This document shows positions 1,828-15,149 of a stretch of 15,149 nt of DNA, in pieces; the stretch's first letter is position 1, and each line of letters begins with the position of its first letter. The stretch is from Magnetospirillum sp. Lineage in GTDB: Bacteria; Pseudomonadota; Alphaproteobacteria; Rhodospirillales; Magnetospirillaceae. The translations under genes were made by a program, and so were the position numbers. The notes under the pieces are model-generated. The model ran no database searches, was not told where the DNA came from, and saw only the letters and a program-made list of their open reading frames with translations. The stretch spans positions 1 through 15,149 of the forward strand of contig JACPDP010000049.1 in assembly GCA_016183945.1 (NCBI GenBank). Direction: 5' to 3'.

Positions 1828-2874
1828 ATGCGCAGGCCCCTACCTCATCTGGTTATCCTTCTGCTGCTGGCGGCCTGCGAGCCGTCGTGGCGGGGCGCGA
1901 CCCCGGTCAGTCGCAACCAGCCGGGGCAGGTGCCGCGGCCCGCCACCGTTACCGTCTATTCCGGCGACACGGTCTACTCGGTGGCGCGGCGCTACAATCT
2001 GACGGTGCGGGAGCTCATCGAGGTCAACGATCTGCGGGCGCCCTACCAGCTTATACCCGGCACCGTGCTGCGCCTGCCCGGCGGCGGCTCCGAGCATGTG
2101 GTGCAGCGGGGCGACACCCTGATCGCCATCGCCCGGCGCTATCGGGTCGATTTCAACAGCCTCGCCGCCACCAATAATAAGCGGACGCCCTACCTGCTGC
2201 AGGTGGGGGAGCGGTTGCGCATCCCCGGTGGCGGCGGCACCCGGGTGGCGAGCACGACGACGGAGGGGCAGGGGGGGGCCATCATCGTCACCTCGCCCAA
2301 CGCCGGCCGCGGCGGCAGCGCGCCACCGCCTCCCGCCGCCGTCACAGGGCGGCCACAGGTGGCTCAGGAGCCGGCCGCTCCGCCGACCGCCGGCCAGACC
2401 GCCTTCGCCCCCACCGAGACCGTGCCGCCGGCCGTGCCGCCGCGAGCCGCCGGCAGCTTCCTGTGGCCGCTCAAGGGCGACCTGCTGGCCGAATACGGTC
2501 CGTTGCTCGGCAAGGGCCAGCACAATGACGGCATCAACATCGCCGCCGCCAAGGGGACGCCGGTCAAGGCGGCGGAAAACGGCGTGGTGGCCTATGTCGG
2601 CAATGAACTCAAGGGCTTCGGCAACCTGCTGCTGGTCAAGCATGCCGATGGCTGGATGACCGCCTATGCCCATGCCGACCAGCTGATGGTGCGCCGGGGC
2701 GACCAGGTCAAGCGGGGCCAGACCATCGCCACCGTCGGCGCGACGGGGAATGTGACGGTGCCGCAGCTGCATTTCGAGATTCGCAACGGCACCCATGCGG
2801 TCAACCCGTTGGACTACCTGCGCGATGCCATCGCCATGGAGTCCCGTTTCCACGGGAATGACAGGCTAATTTAG
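1828..2874 (+). CDS. nlpD: NlpD-like lipoprotein: two LysM domains and a degenerate LytM (M23) domain
   Basis: A 348-residue predicted lipoprotein (lipobox LAAC) that probably activates a cell-wall amidase during cell separation rather than cutting peptidoglycan itself. LysM repeats lie at about 40-86 and 90-134, each built around a GDT motif followed by ARRY. A Pro/Ala-rich linker leads to an M23/LytM fold at about 210-335. Zinc ligands are missing: the HxGxD position reads NDGIN (233-237) and HxH reads QLH (313-315), while His282 (YAHAD) is kept. E. coli NlpD is likewise degenerate. I prefer ATG 1828 to an in-frame GTG at 1819, which lies inside the predicted -10 element. The last residues (MESRFHGNDRLI) appear to be encoded by an intergenic repeat. 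Position after pcm supports the name. Confidence 0.88.
   Translation: MRRPLPHLVILLLLAACEPSWRGATPVSRNQPGQVPRPATVTVYSGDTVYSVARRYNLTVRELIEVNDLRAPYQLIPGTVLRLPGGGSEHVVQRGDTLIAIARRYRVDFNSLAATNNKRTPYLLQVGERLRIPGGGGTRVASTTTEGQGGAIIVTSPNAGRGGSAPPPPAAVTGRPQVAQEPAAPPTAGQTAFAPTETVPPAVPPRAAGSFLWPLKGDLLAEYGPLLGKGQHNDGINIAAAKGTPVKAAENGVVAYVGNELKGFGNLLLVKHADGWMTAYAHADQLMVRRGDQVKRGQTIATVGATGNVTVPQLHFEIRNGTHAVNPLDYLRDAIAMESRFHGNDRLI
2841..2863 (+). repeat. Palindromic repeat copy within the 3' end of nlpD
   Basis: CCCGT-TTCC-ACGGG (2843-2856) is followed by AATGAC and preceded by GT, giving the pattern GTCCCG...CGGGAATGAC. This resembles the widespread intergenic palindrome that reads SRF(H/R)GND when translated. 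The copy at 7160-7201 shares the CCCG(N)CGGG-ATGAC core. It lies in frame inside nlpD and supplies its final codons. Confidence 0.5.
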
Positions 2875-3729
2875 GACCTGGCCCAGTGCCTTGCCCAGGC
2901 GCCCGGCGAGGTCCTGGATGTACTGCCAGGCCACCCGGCCGGAGCGGGAGCCGCGGGTCACCGCCCATTCATTGGCCTCGCGCCGCAACTCATCCACCGC
3001 GATGGACAGGCCGTAGTGGCGGGCATAGCCCTCGACGATGGCGAAATAGGTGTCCTGCGCCACATGGTGGAAGCCCAGCCACAGCCCGAAACGGTCGGAC
3101 AGCGATACCTTCTCCTCCACCGCCTCGCCGGGATTGATGGCGGTCGAGCGCTCGTTGTCGATCATGTCGCGGCTCATCAGGTGACGCCGGTTCGAGGTGG
3201 CATAGAACACCACGTTGGCCGGTCGGCCCTCGATGCCGCCCTCCAGCACCGCCTTCAGGGATTTGTAGGCGTCGTCCTGGGTCTCGAACGACAGGTCGTC
3301 GCAGAACAGCACGCAGCGCCGGCCCGACTCGCGCAGGATGCGCAGGCAGCGCGGCAGCGAGGGGATGTCGTCGCGGGCGATTTCCACCAGGACCAGCGTG
3401 CCGGGTTGCGCGGCATTTATCGTGGCATGCACGGCCTTGACCAGCGAGCTCTTGCCGGTGCCGCGCGCCCCCCACAGCAGGGCGTTGTTGGCGGGCAGTC
3501 CGGCGGCGAAGCGGCGCGTATTGTCCAGCAGCAGGGTGCACTGACGCTCGATGCCTTGCAGCAACGCGATGTCAACCCGGTTGACGTCGTGGATCGGTTC
3601 CAGTCCGTCGGGGTCGGCGTGCCAGACGAAGGCGTCGGCGTCGGCCAGATTGGCGGCGGTGCGCGGCGGCGGGGCCAGGCGGTCCAGCGCATCGGCGATG
3701 CGGGCGAGCAGGGTGGTGGTGGCGTCCAT
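2866..3729 (-). CDS. DUF815-family AAA-type ATPase
   Basis: A 287-residue cytoplasmic ATPase of the DUF815 family; the substrate or partner is unknown. The Walker A motif GARGTGKSS lies at 87-95 (Lys93), with a Walker B-like VLFCDD at 140-145 and a sensor-like YATSNRRHL further on. I chose ATG at 3729; an in-frame start at 3786 would add 19 low-quality residues that cover the yajC promoter. The stop TAG at 2866-2868 lies within the last codons of nlpD, giving a 9-bp tail-to-tail overlap. It is divergent from yajC, with 119 bases between the starts. I recall this ATPase between nlpD and yajC in other alphaproteobacteria, so the arrangement is probably ancestral. Confidence 0.85.
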   Translation of the reverse strand: MDATTTLLARIADALDRLAPPPRTAANLADADAFVWHADPDGLEPIHDVNRVDIALLQGIERQCTLLLDNTRRFAAGLPANNALLWGARGTGKSSLVKAVHATINAAQPGTLVLVEIARDDIPSLPRCLRILRESGRRCVLFCDDLSFETQDDAYKSLKAVLEGGIEGRPANVVFYATSNRRHLMSRDMIDNERSTAINPGEAVEEKVSLSDRFGLWLGFHHVAQDTYFAIVEGYARHYGLSIAVDELRREANEWAVTRGSRSGRVAWQYIQDLAGRLGKALGQVLN

Positions 3730-3780
3730 GGCCGGGGAGCCTAGCACGGCGGTCCGGCCACGCAAGCCCGTTGTTAACGT

Positions 3781-3808
3781 TTGCAAGCCGGCGCAAGACC
3801 GCTATATT
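3781..3808 (+). promoter_or_regulatory. Predicted promoter for yajC-secD-secF
   Basis: TTGCAA (3781-3786) and TATATT (3803-3808) are separated by 16 bases, with the yajC ATG at 3849. This leaves a leader of about 35 bases that holds the ribosome site AGGAGA (3838-3843). A GTTAAC palindrome lies just upstream (3773-3778). It is a good match to the vegetative sigma factor consensus, but not tested. Confidence 0.5.
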
Positions 3809-7212: not shown

Positions 7213-7809
7213 TCAGCCCAGATTGGCCTCGACGAAATCCCAGTTGATCAGGTTGTCGATGAAGGCCTGGACGAAGTCGGGGCGGCGATTCTGGTAGTCC
7301 AGGTAATAGGCGTGCTCCCACACGTCGACGGTGAGCAGGGCCTTCTTGCCGTGCGCCAGCGGCAGATCGGCGTTGGCGGTCTTCATCAGCTCCAGCTTGC
7401 CGTTGTTCTCGACCAGCCAGGCCCAGCCCGAGCCGAATTGCGTCACCGCGGCATTCTTGAAGTCCTCCCTGAACTTGTCGAAGCCGCCGAGATCCGCCTC
7501 GATGCGGGCCAGCAGCTTGGCGCCCGGCTTGCCGCCGCCGCCCTTGGTCAGGCAGTTCCAGAAGAAGGTATGGTTCCACACCTGGGCGGCGTTGTTGAAG
7601 AGGCCCTGCTTGGCCGGCAGATCGGCGGCGGCGATCCTGATCACCTCTTCCAGCGGCTTGGTCGCCAGATCGCTGTCCTTGGTCAGGGTGTTGAGGTTGG
7701 TGACATAGGCCGCATGGTGCTTGCCGTGGTGGAATTCCAGCGTGCGGGCCGAGATGTGCGGTTCAAGATCGGTGTTGCCGAAGGGCAGCGGGGGAAGCTC
7801 GAAAGCCAT
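7213..7809 (-). CDS. sodB: Superoxide dismutase, iron type
   Basis: A 198-residue cytoplasmic enzyme that converts superoxide to hydrogen peroxide and oxygen. All four metal ligands are visible: His27 in FHHGKHH, His80 in VWNHTFFW, and Asp162 and His166 in DVWEHAYY. Gln76 in NNAAQVW is the second-sphere glutamine typical of iron rather than manganese enzymes. No signal peptide is present. AGAGG lies eight bases before the ATG. The gene points towards the Mth938 gene and is separated from hpnE by a 139-base AT-rich gap that holds its own predicted promoter, so it is probably a single-gene transcript. Closely similar in length and motifs to E. coli SodB. Confidence 0.97.
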   Translation of the reverse strand: MAFELPPLPFGNTDLEPHISARTLEFHHGKHHAAYVTNLNTLTKDSDLATKPLEEVIRIAAADLPAKQGLFNNAAQVWNHTFFWNCLTKGGGGKPGAKLLARIEADLGGFDKFREDFKNAAVTQFGSGWAWLVENNGKLELMKTANADLPLAHGKKALLTVDVWEHAYYLDYQNRRPDFVQAFIDNLINWDFVEANLG

Positions 7810-7948: not shown

Positions 7949-9129
7949 TCAAAACGTCAGCCCGGGCCGGCCCAAGGCCAAGCGGGCGGCGGCCAGACCG
8001 CTGGAAACGGCGGCCTCGATGGTACAGGGCCACGGCGATGCGATCCAGTCGCCTGCAAGGAATATACGCGGGAAGCGGGTTGCCGGGCCGGGGCGCCGGC
8101 GCAGGACATCGGGGGTATGGGCCAGGGTGGCACGACGCTCCTTCAGCACGCGGAACGGCGGCAAGGCGGCGGGCAGGTCCAGCGCCCGGGCGGCGTCGGC
8201 CCACAGCAGGGCGGCGATCTCGTCGTTGGGCAGCACCGCCAGCCGGTCGGCGGCGGATACGGTCACCGACAGCACGTCGCCGCGCCACGACAGCCATTGC
8301 GCCACGCCGCCGACCACGCCGAGGAAGCGGGCTTGGGCGGGCGGAATCCAGGTGCCGCGGAAATGGGCGTTGACGATGGTGCGGGTAGGCAGCGCCGGCA
8401 CCTCGTCGGGGAACACCTGGGCGGCGGCCCAGGGCGGCAGCGCCAGCACGGCCCGGTCCTCCGGACCCAGCGTTACCGCGTCGCTCTCGAACACCAGCGA
8501 TTCTCCGGAGGCAGCCATCAGGCGGTGTTGCAGGCGCACCATGGCGCCGAACAGGGTCAGGGTGGCCAGCGCCGGGGCGACGAAGGCGGCACTCAGGCCG
8601 GCCGGGAACAGCCAGGGGGTCATGGCCGCCGCGCCCCCCAGCAGCACCCGCCGCAGCACGCGGGCGAACAGCCGTGCCGAGGCCTCCGCCGGTGCGGTGT
8701 CGAGGATGGCCTCGCACAACGGGCGCCATAGCCGGGCGTAGGAGGGCGTGCCGCCGAGGCGGGCGGCGACGGTTTGGGCGTCGCCGGTCCACGGCAGCCC
8801 CAAGGCCCGGCCCAGTTCGAACAGGCGGGCGCCGGGGCTGTTTGGCGTGACCACCCAGCGGTCACCGCCGATGAGGTCGATGAAGGGAAACACGGCCGGC
8901 GCCGCTTCCATGGCCTCGTCGCCGCCGACGGCGCGGGAGAACGCCAGGGCGGCCCGGTTGGCGCCCAGCACCAGATGGGTGCCGTTGTCGATCAGGCGGC
9001 CGAGTGGCAACGTCCGCCGGCATGGCCGGCGGCCTCGTGCAGCACCACCCGGGCGCCGGCGCGGGTGGCGGCCACGGCGCAGGCCAGTCCGGCCATGCCG
9101 GCGCCCACCACGTGCAGGGTGCCCTTCAC
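7949..9129 (-). pseudogene. hpnE: Hydroxysqualene dehydroxylase HpnE, frameshifted near the 5' end
   Basis: HpnE is the FAD-dependent enzyme that reduces hydroxysqualene to squalene, the third step after HpnC and HpnD. Translation from GTG 9129, which overlaps the hpnD stop as GTGA, gives the dinucleotide-binding start (GAGMAGL, glycines 9, 11 and 14) and AAGHAGGRCH, then SAA and a stop at 8994-8992. The rest (LGRLIDNGTHLVLGANRAAL onward) is in another frame starting at 9004 and runs intact to TGA 7949, ending with the expected FAD-site segment FLAGDWIASPWPCTIEAA. Homologues have a few residues between GGRCxS and LGR that are missing here, so a small deletion of about 20 bases (not a multiple of three) is the simplest cause. 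It could be a real mutation or a sequencing or assembly error. Confidence 0.8.
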
Positions 9130-9944
9130 GGCGTCGCCACCCCCAGGCGCAGCGCGATGGAGAAGACCGTGCGCAAGGCGATGGCCAGCTTCTCCAGACG
9201 TCCCACGCGTGGCGGCGGGCCGGGGCGCCAGCCATGCACGCGCAGGCGGTGCAGTTGCGCGCGATAGGTGGCGGCCATCACCATGGCCGGCCACAGGCCG
9301 CGGCGGCCGAGACGGGCGATCTCGCCCTCGGCCTCGCGGAAGCGGGCCTCCGCCATATCGGCCAAGGCGTCGCAGGCCCGCGGCAGGGCGGGGTGCCGGG
9401 CGACCTCGGTCGGTCGGCGGTCGGCGATCCCGGCCTCGGTCAGCAGCTCGGCCGGCAGGTAAAGCCGTCCCAGCCCGGCATCCTCGGCCACGTCGCGCAA
9501 GATGTTGGTGAATTGCAGCGCCTCACCCAGCGACACCGCCAGTGTCTCAGCCTCGGGGCGGCCGAAGATGCGCACCGCCAGCATGCCCACCGCCCCGGCG
9601 ACGCGCCGGCAGTAGAGCCGCAGTTGATGCAGCGACGGGGCCACCACCGGGCCGTCGACGTCCATTTCCATGCCGTCGATCAGCGCCTCCAGTTCGCCCC
9701 GCGGCAGCGCGAAGCGCTCTGCCGCCGTGGCCAGCGCCGCCACTTCGGGCGCCCGCGCCGCGCCGCCGCCATAAAGGGCGGCGAGGTCGCGGCGATAGGC
9801 GGCGAGTCGGGCGCGCTTGACCTCGGCCGGCTGCGGCCCGTCGGCCACGTCGTCCAGCGCCCGGCAATAGCCGTAGAGGACGAACATGGCCTGGCGGCGG
9901 GCCGCCGGCATCAGCCGCATGGCCCAATAGAAGGACGAACTCAT
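9126..9944 (-). CDS. hpnD: Presqualene diphosphate synthase
   Basis: A 272-residue squalene/phytoene synthase-family enzyme that joins two farnesyl diphosphates head to head to give presqualene diphosphate, first step of the HpnCDE squalene route. The first aspartate-rich motif is YCRALDDVAD (Asp31, 32, 35) and the second is NILRDVAEDAGLGRLYLP. The start FYWAMRLMPAARRQAMFVLY is typical of the family and keeps an early SFYWAM box. ATG 9944 overlaps the hpnC stop as ATGA, and its own stop overlaps the hpnE GTG as GTGA, so the three genes are tightly coupled. Nothing suggests loss of activity. Confidence 0.93.
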   Translation of the reverse strand: MSSSFYWAMRLMPAARRQAMFVLYGYCRALDDVADGPQPAEVKRARLAAYRRDLAALYGGGAARAPEVAALATAAERFALPRGELEALIDGMEMDVDGPVVAPSLHQLRLYCRRVAGAVGMLAVRIFGRPEAETLAVSLGEALQFTNILRDVAEDAGLGRLYLPAELLTEAGIADRRPTEVARHPALPRACDALADMAEARFREAEGEIARLGRRGLWPAMVMAATYRAQLHRLRVHGWRPGPPPRVGRLEKLAIALRTVFSIALRLGVATP

Positions 9945-10786
9945 GCCCTGAGGCCCCGCAGCACTCCGGTGGCGAAGGCGCCGAGATAGCCCAGCGGACC
10001 CAACGCCACCCGCATCGCCAGCGGGTCCTTGGTGCGCAGCAGGGCGGACAGCCGCTCGGCCACCGTCAGGATCACCGAGACCTCCAGGCGCAGCCGGCGG
10101 TCGCGCACCAGGGCGGGCAGGGGGGCGGCCAGGTCCAGCAGTCCATCGACACCGTCCAGCACCCGGTCGAGCACGGCGCGTAGCGGCGGGGGGCTGAAGC
10201 CGCCCTCGAACACCCGGTTTGTCAACCCCACCCCGAGCAGCCAGTCGCGCGGCACATAGACCCGCCCCAGGGCCTCGTAGTCATCGCCGCAGTCCTGCAG
10301 GTGGTTGAGCACCTGCAGCGCGGCGCACAGCGCGTCGCCGGGACCGTGGGTGGCGGCGGCCTCGCCATGCAGGTCGAGCAGGAAGCGCCCGACCGGCGCC
10401 GCCGAGAAGCGGCAATAGGCCATCAGGTCGCCCCAGTCGCGGCAGTGGTTGCTGACCGCGTCGCGGCGGAACGCCTGCAACAATTGGCTGGCGTGGTCCA
10501 GGAGCGGCGAGGCGCCACCCAGCGCGGTGCGTAGCGCCAGCGCCACCGCCGCCGAGGCCCCCGCCGCCTGGCCTGACAGCGCGGCGTCGAGAGCGTCGAG
10601 GCGGGCCAGCTTCTCCTCGGGCGCCAGAGTGGGGTTGTCGGCGATGTCGTCGGCAGCGCGGGCGTAGCGGTAGAAGGCGGTGGCCTTGGCGCGGGCGGGG
10701 GCGGCCAGCAGGAACGAGCCGACCGGGAAATTTTCCCCGGCGGCAGTCTTGGGCGGTGCGGTGGGCAAGGCGGCGGCCCGGGACAA
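9941..10786 (-). CDS. hpnC: Hydroxysqualene synthase
   Basis: A 281-residue squalene/phytoene synthase-family enzyme that converts presqualene diphosphate to hydroxysqualene. Both substrate-Mg motifs are present: YARAADDIAD (Asp46, 47, 50) and LNHLQDCGDDYEALGRVYVP. The N-terminal ENFPVGSFLL box is characteristic of HpnC. No ATG fits; I chose TTG at 10786 because GAGGAGA lies 7 bases upstream on the minus strand and the protein then has normal length. A longer frame reaching 11320 runs backwards through the divergent gene and is not real beyond this point. It is the first gene of hpnC-hpnD-hpnE and is divergent from the gene at 10868, with 81 bases between them. Confidence 0.9.
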   Translation of the reverse strand: MSRAAALPTAPPKTAAGENFPVGSFLLAAPARAKATAFYRYARAADDIADNPTLAPEEKLARLDALDAALSGQAAGASAAVALALRTALGGASPLLDHASQLLQAFRRDAVSNHCRDWGDLMAYCRFSAAPVGRFLLDLHGEAAATHGPGDALCAALQVLNHLQDCGDDYEALGRVYVPRDWLLGVGLTNRVFEGGFSPPPLRAVLDRVLDGVDGLLDLAAPLPALVRDRRLRLEVSVILTVAERLSALLRTKDPLAMRVALGPLGYLGAFATGVLRGLRA

Positions 10787-10867
10787 ACGGGGCTCTCCTC
10801 GCAGGGACTTGAACGGCCTATAGTGTGCCACGCCCACCCCGCACCCTCCAGGGGAAACACCGCCCGC

Positions 10868-11701
10868 ATGCCTTCCGTCCAGGGACTGTCCGAAGCCGCC
10901 GATCTGGTCCGCCGCCCCGACCGCGAGCGCTTTGTCACCGCCCTGTTCGCTCCCTTGGAGCGGCGCGAGGCGCTGATGGTGCTCTACGCCTTCAACACCG
11001 AGGTGGCCCGCGTGCGCGAAATGGTCAAGGAGCCCATGGCCGGGCTGGTGCGGCTGCAATGGTGGCGCGAGGTGGTGAGCGGCAGCCGCTCCGCCGACCG
11101 TCACCCGGTGGCGGCGCCGCTGACCGAGCTGATCCGCGCTTACGAGCTGCCCCTGGAGCCGTTCGAGCGTCTGCTGACGGCCCGCGAAAGCGATCTCTAC
11201 GCCGAGCCGCCGGCCGACCTGGCCGCCGCCGAAGCCTATGCCGACGACACCTCGGGCGGACTGACCGCCCTCGCCGTGCGGCTGCTGGGAGGCGGGGAGG
11301 CGGCGGCCGTTGCGGGGCATTCCGTCGGTATCGCCTGGTCGCTGATCGGGCAGCTCCGCGCGCTACCCTTTGCGCTGTCAATGGGACGGTTGACACTACC
11401 GGTTGAGGTCGTGCGGACGGCCGGCACCACGCCCGAGGAGGTCCTGGCCGGCGGCGCCCCGAGGCCGGTGCTGGCCGCCGCCGCCGCCCGGATGGGGGCT
11501 CGTGCCGCCGAGCATCTGGCCATGGCCCGGCGTCACCGGCTGGGGCGGACGACACTGGCGGCGCTGCTGCCGGCCACCATCGCCTCCCGGCATCTGCGAA
11601 TGTTGGCCATCGCCCGTTGGGACGTCTTCGACCCCCGGGTGGCGATTCCGCGGGCGAATCCCCTCCGACTCTGGCTTTCCCACGCCATCGGGCGGTTCTG
11701 A
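10868..11701 (+). CDS. Squalene/phytoene synthase-fold protein without catalytic aspartates, NDUFAF6-like
   Basis: A 277-residue protein of the squalene/phytoene synthase superfamily that has lost the active-site acids. Where active enzymes read YxFxRxxDDxxD, this one reads YAFNTEVARVRE (40-51). Where they read LRDxxEDxxxGRxYLP, it reads LRALPFALSMGRLTLP. The motif VRLQWWREVV is shared with NDUFAF6, a mitochondrial complex I assembly factor of this fold. I therefore expect a non-enzymatic role, possibly in complex I biogenesis, and not prenyl transfer. ATG 10868 has AGGGGA 12 bases upstream; an earlier in-frame GTG at 10823 overlaps a possible -10 element (TATAGT, 10819-10824). It is divergent from hpnC and convergent with bpt. 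Confidence 0.82.
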   Translation: MPSVQGLSEAADLVRRPDRERFVTALFAPLERREALMVLYAFNTEVARVREMVKEPMAGLVRLQWWREVVSGSRSADRHPVAAPLTELIRAYELPLEPFERLLTARESDLYAEPPADLAAAEAYADDTSGGLTALAVRLLGGGEAAAVAGHSVGIAWSLIGQLRALPFALSMGRLTLPVEVVRTAGTTPEEVLAGGAPRPVLAAAAARMGARAAEHLAMARRHRLGRTTLAALLPATIASRHLRMLAIARWDVFDPRVAIPRANPLRLWLSHAIGRF

Positions 11702-13309: not shown

Positions 13310-15149
13310 CTACTGCTCCAGCTCGCGCGCCATGTCGGACAGTGAGGACACCAGATCCGCCAGGCCGATGGCGACGTTGGTGAGGATGCGCTGGCCCAGC
13401 TCGGGCTGCGAGCGGCACAGCGAGCGGAACAGCTCGCCGTCCATGTGCCAGCACACGACCCGGGTCTCGGCCACCACGTCGGCGCCGCGGCGGCGGCCGG
13501 TCAGCACGCCCAATTCGCCGAAGCTGATGCCTGCGCTGCACCCGGAAAAACGCAGCACGCGGTCGCCGATGCGCCGCGACACCGTGACCCGCCCCGCGGC
13601 GACCAGATAGAGGGAGTCTCCGTCGTCGCCCTCGGAGACGATGGCCATGCCGGGCGCGAACTCGATCCGCTTCATCATCGCCCCGATCATGGCGGCGTCT
13701 TCGGCACTCATGCCCTTGAGGATATCGAAATCCTCCAGCGAGGTTTCGGCGTCGTCGTCGGTGTTGATGCCCGCCTCGCGCAGCAGCAGGTCCTCGGCGC
13801 AGGTCAGGGCGGCGTCGGTATCGGCATAGGCGCGGCCCTGCTTCAGCAGGCGGGCGAAGCCCATGTCCTCGAACGACGTCCACAGCGCCCCACCTTCTGC
13901 CACATACGACAGAAACAGCAGACATTCCTGCCGCCCCAGCGCCTTGTCCAGACGTTCCAGCGCCACCACGCCGCTGCCGTCGATGTCGCTGACCCGCTTC
14001 ATGTCCAGGATGACGACGCGGCAGCTCTTGGCGTTCTCCTCAAGGTGACGGGTCAGCTGGTCGGCCGAGCCGAAGAAGATCGGCCCCTGCACCTCGACCA
14101 TGGCCATGCGCTCGGCCAACCCCTTGAGCACAGCCTGGATGGAAGCCGGCCGCGAGGTGCGCGAGCGCAGATGGGTGCCCAGAACCGTGCGGCGGATGAT
14201 GTTCTGCGACGCCTGGCGGACGAACACGGCGAAGGCCAGGGTCATGCCCGTCACCAGCGCCGGCAGCACGCCGAAACCGACCACCAGCGCGGTCACCGCC
14301 AGCACCTGTCCCAGATTGCCGATCAGCTCGGTGTTGCGGCCGCCGCGCCCCGGCCGCATCAGCTGGCGGATCAACTGGCGGCTCCAATCGTCCATCTGGT
14401 TGAAGGTCGAGGCCACCACCACGCCCGCCATCACCGCCGTGGGGATCTGCCCGATCACCTCGCCCAGGCCCAGCGCCAGCACCGCCAGGGTCAGCCCGTG
14501 GGCCAGATTGGCGGTACGGCTGCGGCCGCCGTTCTCAAGCACCGTGCGGGTGACCGAGGGCGACCCGCCGGTGGGCATTCCCCCCAGCAGCCCGGCGGCC
14601 ACGTTGCCGGCCCCCTGGAGGATCAACTCGTGGTTGCTGTCATGGCGGGTCCCCAGCACCGCATCCGCCGCCGAGATGCTCAGCAGCGACTGCAACGAGC
14701 CGATCAGCGCCAGCATCACCGAGGTGGCCACCAGTTGCGGCATCAGCTCGGCGAAGACCGGGCTGGTCACCAGCCGCGCCAGTTCGCCGAACTGGGGGGC
14801 CACCGGCAGGGTCGCCGGGATGGCGCCGATGAGTCCGCCCCACCCCATCTCGGGCAGGGTCGACGCCACCACCCAGTGCAGCCCGGTGCCCAGCCCCAGC
14901 CCCCACAGCGCCGGAGCCCCCCGCCGGGTCACCCGGGGAACCAGCACGGTCACCAAACAGGCCAGCAGCCCGAGCATGGCCGCGCCGGGGTGCAGTTCCA
15001 CGCTTCCCCGCGCCGCGCCCACCAGCGCGCCCCAACTGCGCTCGCCCAGCATGGGCGGCATCTGTCCCAGCAGCAGGTGGATGGCAAAGCCGTTGATGAA
15101 GCCGGCGATCACCGGATAGGGAATGAATTTGACGAACTTGCCCAGGCGG
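13310..15149 (-). CDS. SulP-family anion transporter with STAS and cyclic-nucleotide-binding domains (5' end outside window)
   Basis: The frame is open to the window edge, giving 612 residues of a larger protein. The visible start GKFVKFIPYPVIAGFINGFA is the conserved mid-membrane segment of SulP/SLC26 carriers, and further spans follow, including a PTGGSPSVTRTVLENGGRS loop. A STAS domain follows, with IFFGSADQLTRHLEENA and the DMKRVSDIDGSGV signature around the site where anti-sigma antagonists carry the phosphorylated Ser/Thr. The C-terminus is a cyclic-nucleotide-binding fold (MAIVSEGDDGDSLYLVAAGRV, then SFGELGVLTGRRRGADVVAE). The anion could be sulfate, bicarbonate or another. It ends in TAG at 13310 and precedes the holC remnant. 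The domain order suggests gating of transport by a nucleotide signal, which is an inference. Confidence 0.92.
   Translation of the reverse strand, partial: RLGKFVKFIPYPVIAGFINGFAIHLLLGQMPPMLGERSWGALVGAARGSVELHPGAAMLGLLACLVTVLVPRVTRRGAPALWGLGLGTGLHWVVASTLPEMGWGGLIGAIPATLPVAPQFGELARLVTSPVFAELMPQLVATSVMLALIGSLQSLLSISAADAVLGTRHDSNHELILQGAGNVAAGLLGGMPTGGSPSVTRTVLENGGRSRTANLAHGLTLAVLALGLGEVIGQIPTAVMAGVVVASTFNQMDDWSRQLIRQLMRPGRGGRNTELIGNLGQVLAVTALVVGFGVLPALVTGMTLAFAVFVRQASQNIIRRTVLGTHLRSRTSRPASIQAVLKGLAERMAMVEVQGPIFFGSADQLTRHLEENAKSCRVVILDMKRVSDIDGSGVVALERLDKALGRQECLLFLSYVAEGGALWTSFEDMGFARLLKQGRAYADTDAALTCAEDLLLREAGINTDDDAETSLEDFDILKGMSAEDAAMIGAMMKRIEFAPGMAIVSEGDDGDSLYLVAAGRVTVSRRIGDRVLRFSGCSAGISFGELGVLTGRRRGADVVAETRVVCWHMDGELFRSLCRSQPELGQRILTNVAIGLADLVSSLSDMARELEQ

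Follow-up and report, generated by a model that had tools for sequence, protein, structure and literature searches.

In the HpnCDE pathway, as summarized in PMC5462960 from Pan et al. (2015), HpnD forms presqualene diphosphate, HpnC forms hydroxysqualene, and HpnE reduces hydroxysqualene to squalene. In the stretch of DNA analyzed here (15,149 nucleotides, referred to as the window), the genes lie on the minus strand in the order hpnC, hpnD, hpnE, with the hpnE start overlapping the hpnD stop, and are followed by a superoxide dismutase gene; the frame of hpnE is interrupted. The question raised by this locus is whether a working HpnE can still be made from it and how the interruption arose. 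We consider it probable that the locus holds a recent loss-of-function allele of hpnE, the gene for hydroxysqualene dehydroxylase, in a Magnetospirillum-like bacterium of the Rhodospirillaceae.

Two pieces of hpnE in different reading frames

The first-pass annotation had read hpnE as starting at GTG 9129 and stopping after 45 codons at 8994-8992, with a further 351 codons, from LGRLIDNGTHL, intact one frame over and joining at about 9004. Re-reading of the frames returned the same start, length, and stop, and the downstream frame was likewise confirmed, both pieces matching the HpnE model TIGR03467. The frames concerned are as follows.

8992..9129, minus strand: hpnE 5' piece, from GTG 9129, with the GAGMAGL Rossmann motif and GGRC; 45 codons, premature TGA at 8994-8992
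7949..9004, minus strand: hpnE 3' piece, in the other frame; 351 codons from LGRLIDNG, stop at 7951-7949
7949..9235, minus strand: open frame of 428 amino acids from ATG 9235; 231.5 bits against the HpnE model

The 45-amino-acid upstream piece matched positions 2 to 40 of TIGR03467 (42.7 bits, E = 4.5e-11) and the 351-amino-acid downstream piece gave its best stretch at positions 143 to 429 (231.6 bits, E = 2.1e-68), so that the two pieces matched in model order. The locus resembles the gene for the third step of the pathway in this respect and in its place after hpnC and hpnD, but it differs in that a 19-base deletion divides the copy and every product falls under the cut-off. To count as a functional HpnE, a whole protein was required to score more than 283.05 bits, the curated cut-off. 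Both pieces and the 428-amino-acid frame fell short of this value; the intact homologue P0001 scored 290.9 bits, and P0001 to P0003 were all over the cut-off. The Rossmann domain PF13450 was present in P0001 and in the 45-amino-acid piece, whereas a Pfam search found it in neither the 351-amino-acid piece nor the 428-amino-acid frame. The N-terminal FAD-binding Rossmann motif is not continuous with the GGRC..DNG segment, the motif-bearing frame ending at the premature stop.

The 428-amino-acid frame crosses the end of hpnD and the start of hpnE out of frame and then joins the hpnE body. Since it has about the length of the 430-position HpnE model, a check on length alone could call hpnE intact, which is a caution for annotation. 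A terminator-like site within hpnE (8905-8892) was at chance level (1 found; shuffle mean, 0.6).

A 19-base deletion relative to intact alleles

A scan of genome contigs confirmed five loci, the closest of which (L001, from a Rhodospirillaceae MAG) shared 91% identity over the 351 amino acids, while the other four shared 61 to 62%. In L001, hpnE is intact, and the window is 19 bases short at the following position.

Between 9005 and 9004, minus strand: deletion junction, 19 bases fewer than L001, the same number being implied by the length of P0001; 9004 is the first base after the gap

L001 and the window were collinear at 87% DNA identity over one block of about 5.9 kb and another of about 4.5 kb, and their direct alignment (10.5 kb) contained 17 gaps. 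The 19-base gap in hpnE was the only one within a gene body that was not a multiple of three, the other gene-body gaps being of 24, 12, 9, and 3 bases, all divisible by three. A further gap fell at the superoxide dismutase stop codon (45 bases), another preceded the likely yajC start (34 bases), and nine were intergenic. At position 2881 (minus strand), the window exceeds L001 by 17 bases within the final codons of the gene at 2866-3786, and the two proteins end differently. That one gene-body gap among the 17 should be out of triplet register indicated that the hpnE break is more than chance.

A second relative gave the same size. P0001, which is full length and 99% identical over the 351 amino acids, has 48 residues (144 bases) before LGRLIDNG, compared to 125 bases in the window, a difference of 19 bases that was estimated from protein rather than DNA; P0002, also intact, was 91% identical. 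The first-pass annotation had favored a small deletion over a single-base slip and had proposed an alignment with HpnE of related strains; the deletion was borne out by L001 and P0001, and in that alignment the relatives are intact and the window lacks the 19 bases. The broken copy stands at the orthologous position after hpnC and hpnD, and near relatives carry the intact allele, which are the two marks of a frameshifted allele. The allele is ordinary in kind, a frameshifted form of a known gene, and the deletion is real in the sequence.

The 19 missing bases lie immediately past the GGRC of the FAD-binding fold, and their loss shifts the frame and leaves a peptide of 45 amino acids; slippage in a hairpin-prone, GC-rich stretch may have been the cause. 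The same region of L001, treated as single-stranded DNA, folded into a strong hairpin (z = -3.16, matched by 1 of 200 shuffles), a plausible setting for polymerase slippage. By eye, the longest word shared at the junction has 3 to 4 bases at most, too short to prove a mechanism.

The genes around hpnE

The upstream pathway genes and the gene downstream of hpnE are located as follows.

9941..10756, minus strand: hpnC, open, 271 codons aligned to L001 ungapped, start approximate; 243.2 bits against an HpnC cut-off of 250.45
9126..9944, minus strand: hpnD, open, 272 amino acids; 277.4 bits against an HpnD cut-off of 278.6
7213..7809, minus strand: superoxide dismutase gene, downstream of hpnE

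HpnD and HpnC were the best families for their proteins, each slightly under the curated cut-off; the HpnD of L001 (P0122) was under it as well, at 274.2 bits, and P0121, from which the window's hpnD product differs at 6 of 272 residues, was over it, at 280.3 bits. Both genes aligned to L001 with no frame break, and the earlier view that they look intact is upheld in spite of scores just under the cut-offs. Near the C terminus of HpnD, at the 3' end of its gene (9158, minus strand), the window and L001 differ by 24 bases without a change of frame; P0121 is as long as the window's HpnD, so this looks like lineage variation rather than a lesion.

Ahead of the superoxide dismutase gene lies a promoter-like site (7903-7875; 1 found, 0.1 expected), which suggests that this gene may be transcribed independently of hpnE, from the predicted promoter. 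Divergent from hpnC, at 10823-11701 on the plus strand, is a third squalene/phytoene-synthase-like protein, well under the cut-offs for both HpnD (94.3 bits) and HpnC (46.5 bits). At 13310-15112 on the minus strand, a single protein with sulfate-permease, STAS, and cyclic-nucleotide-binding domains is encoded by a gene that runs off the window. No Rfam family exceeded its gathering score within the window, and a near-match search of a plasmid collection with the window returned no match.

Age of the lesion and the possibility of an artefact

If hpnE had been broken for long, signs of decay would be expected outside the junction; none were found. Relative to L001, dN/dS was 0.177 for the downstream piece and 0.217 for 41 codons of the upstream piece, compared to 0.101 to 0.350 for nine other window genes (0.231 for hpnC). 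Relative to P0001, 4 of 351 and 1 of 41 residues differed (5/392), and with P0002 as the outgroup, two of these changes fell on the window side, two on the P0001 side, and one was undecided, all of these being small numbers. Since hpnE evolves like its neighbors and shows no decay, the lesion is either recent or an artefact; the recent origin proposed in the first-pass annotation is thereby supported, and an artefact fits these data equally well.

The deletion might accordingly have arisen during assembly, amplification, or library preparation, or the assembler might have taken up a minority allele; in either case hpnE would be intact in the population. Besides the lack of relaxed selection outside the junction, this would accord with the existence of a near-identical intact protein, P0001, and with the hairpin-prone region of the relative, where polymerases can skip in library preparation as they can in cells. 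Moreover, the broken allele was not sighted independently: a search with the 45-amino-acid peptide returned only two candidates (70% and 63% identical), and no protein 100% identical to the 351-amino-acid piece was present among the best 120 of 4930, in a database clustered at 90%, where P0001's cluster, which has 2 members, could conceal a broken one. On the other hand, gene bodies elsewhere show no other frame break relative to L001, and a clean 19-base gap is atypical of short-read error. P0001 and P0121 are probably encoded on one contig, to judge from their contigs' both being 3735 bases long and of the same source, and with 5 of 392 and 6 of 272 residues different, respectively, they probably represent another strain, so that they are no proof that the window's strain is intact. 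An artefact or minority allele was thus regarded as unlikely, although it has to be taken seriously, and the organism's DNA probably does carry the deletion.

Possible residual function of the broken allele

Among the homologues listed (the best 120 of 4930 hits), 118 shared a constant GGRC-to-D[NT]G spacing, and the other two were without that region. The C and S of GGRCxS were invariant in 115 aligned segments; the flanking GGR and DNG belonged to the search pattern and hence offer little proof of conservation. Sequence comparison matched P0001 to seven solved chains (five L-amino acid oxidases, an amine oxidase, and a phytoene dehydrogenase), and the best stretches of all seven fell in its N-terminal part. 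Because the deletion cuts the fixed-length segment and because neither the 351- nor the 428-amino-acid product has a Rossmann domain, a functional HpnE from this allele, even by way of a frameshift or an internal start, is very unlikely on the basis of sequence. P0081 (324 amino acids, on a contig of 2098 bases) is an HpnE homologue whose start, a methionine of its own, lies beyond the FAD-binding part; it could be a further copy broken at the N terminus or an effect of the contig end or of gene calling.

It might still be argued that a working protein is made through programmed frameshifting, an internal start, or the 428-amino-acid frame, since the 351 downstream codons are open and conserved and the 428-amino-acid frame spans them. 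The recency of the lesion explains that conservation, and the longer frame lacks a Rossmann match and stays under the HpnE cut-off. Programmed frameshifting is unlikely because the gap also takes part of the segment whose length is fixed in all 118 listed homologues that have it, and a frameshifted product would still be without that part. Furthermore, the frame break itself is not conserved (the region is uninterrupted in 118 of the 118 listed homologues that include it), and no slippery heptamer was seen by eye. As for a stimulating RNA structure, the RNA 3' of the junction folded no better than shuffles (z = -0.20). Continued production of a working enzyme therefore appears very improbable, and the recent loss-of-function allele is the preferred explanation.

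The pathway in relatives' genomes

In the genome of L001 (G001), one HpnE was over the cut-off, the next match reaching 39 bits, and a squalene-hopene cyclase was over its cut-off. No TIGR01559 squalene synthase in this genome exceeded the cut-off, and the sole weak TIGR01559 match shares a contig with hpnE and lies immediately upstream of it. By inference from this relative, the window organism would have no obvious back-up for HpnE. From the known HpnCDE pathway, carriers of the deletion would be expected to stop at hydroxysqualene and may make little or no hopanoid.

HpnE was over the cut-off in 44 of the 61 relatives' genomes searched, G001 included; a tally by E value (61 of 61) was uninformative, all 14 controls also matching and none of them being over the cut-off. 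Among the matches listed for the 17 genomes below the cut-off, 11 had two adjacent pieces on the same strand with coordinates in one frame, and one (G060) had a single full-length piece. Two matches started at a contig end (G023 and G014), one genome had pieces on two contigs (G027), and one, of 0.9 Mb, had a weak match alone (G013). In G049, the match looks short, and the contig ends at 4739, just past it. A second HpnE lesion was thus considered and rejected, with no evidence for one in any of the 17 among the matches listed.

According to PMC5462960, four cultivated acidobacteria with shc are without hpnE, and three of them are also without hpnC; those hpnE-less acidobacteria carry a farnesyl transferase gene that is a possible replacement. 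They resemble the present case in that HpnE function is missing and other pathway genes are kept, but there hpnE was undetected and the farnesyl transferase gene was present, whereas the window has a fresh frameshift within an hpnC-hpnD-hpnE cluster. The loss of hpnE might instead be older and adaptive, with another enzyme supplying squalene or with hydroxysqualene used directly. These acidobacteria offer a precedent for such a loss, yet it is highly improbable given that the broken hpnE shows no excess of amino acid changes and that L001's genome pairs its single HpnE with no TIGR01559 squalene synthase over the cut-off. A literature search for hpnE pseudogenes in the context of hopanoids returned no papers.

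Implications of a probable recent loss of hpnE

The recent loss-of-function allele might also signify that a natural Magnetospirillum-like lineage has, through a knock-out of the last squalene step, only recently given up making squalene and hopanoids and still has HpnC, HpnD, and probably squalene-hopene cyclase, with hydroxysqualene accumulating or feeding the cyclase, a broader reading that we put forward as improbable. If it were true, passage of hydroxysqualene through the cyclase may give unusual hydroxylated triterpenoids. If the deletion is real, the organism would be a natural hpnE knock-out beside relatives that keep the gene, and it would be useful for the study of life without hopanoids or with hydroxysqualene.
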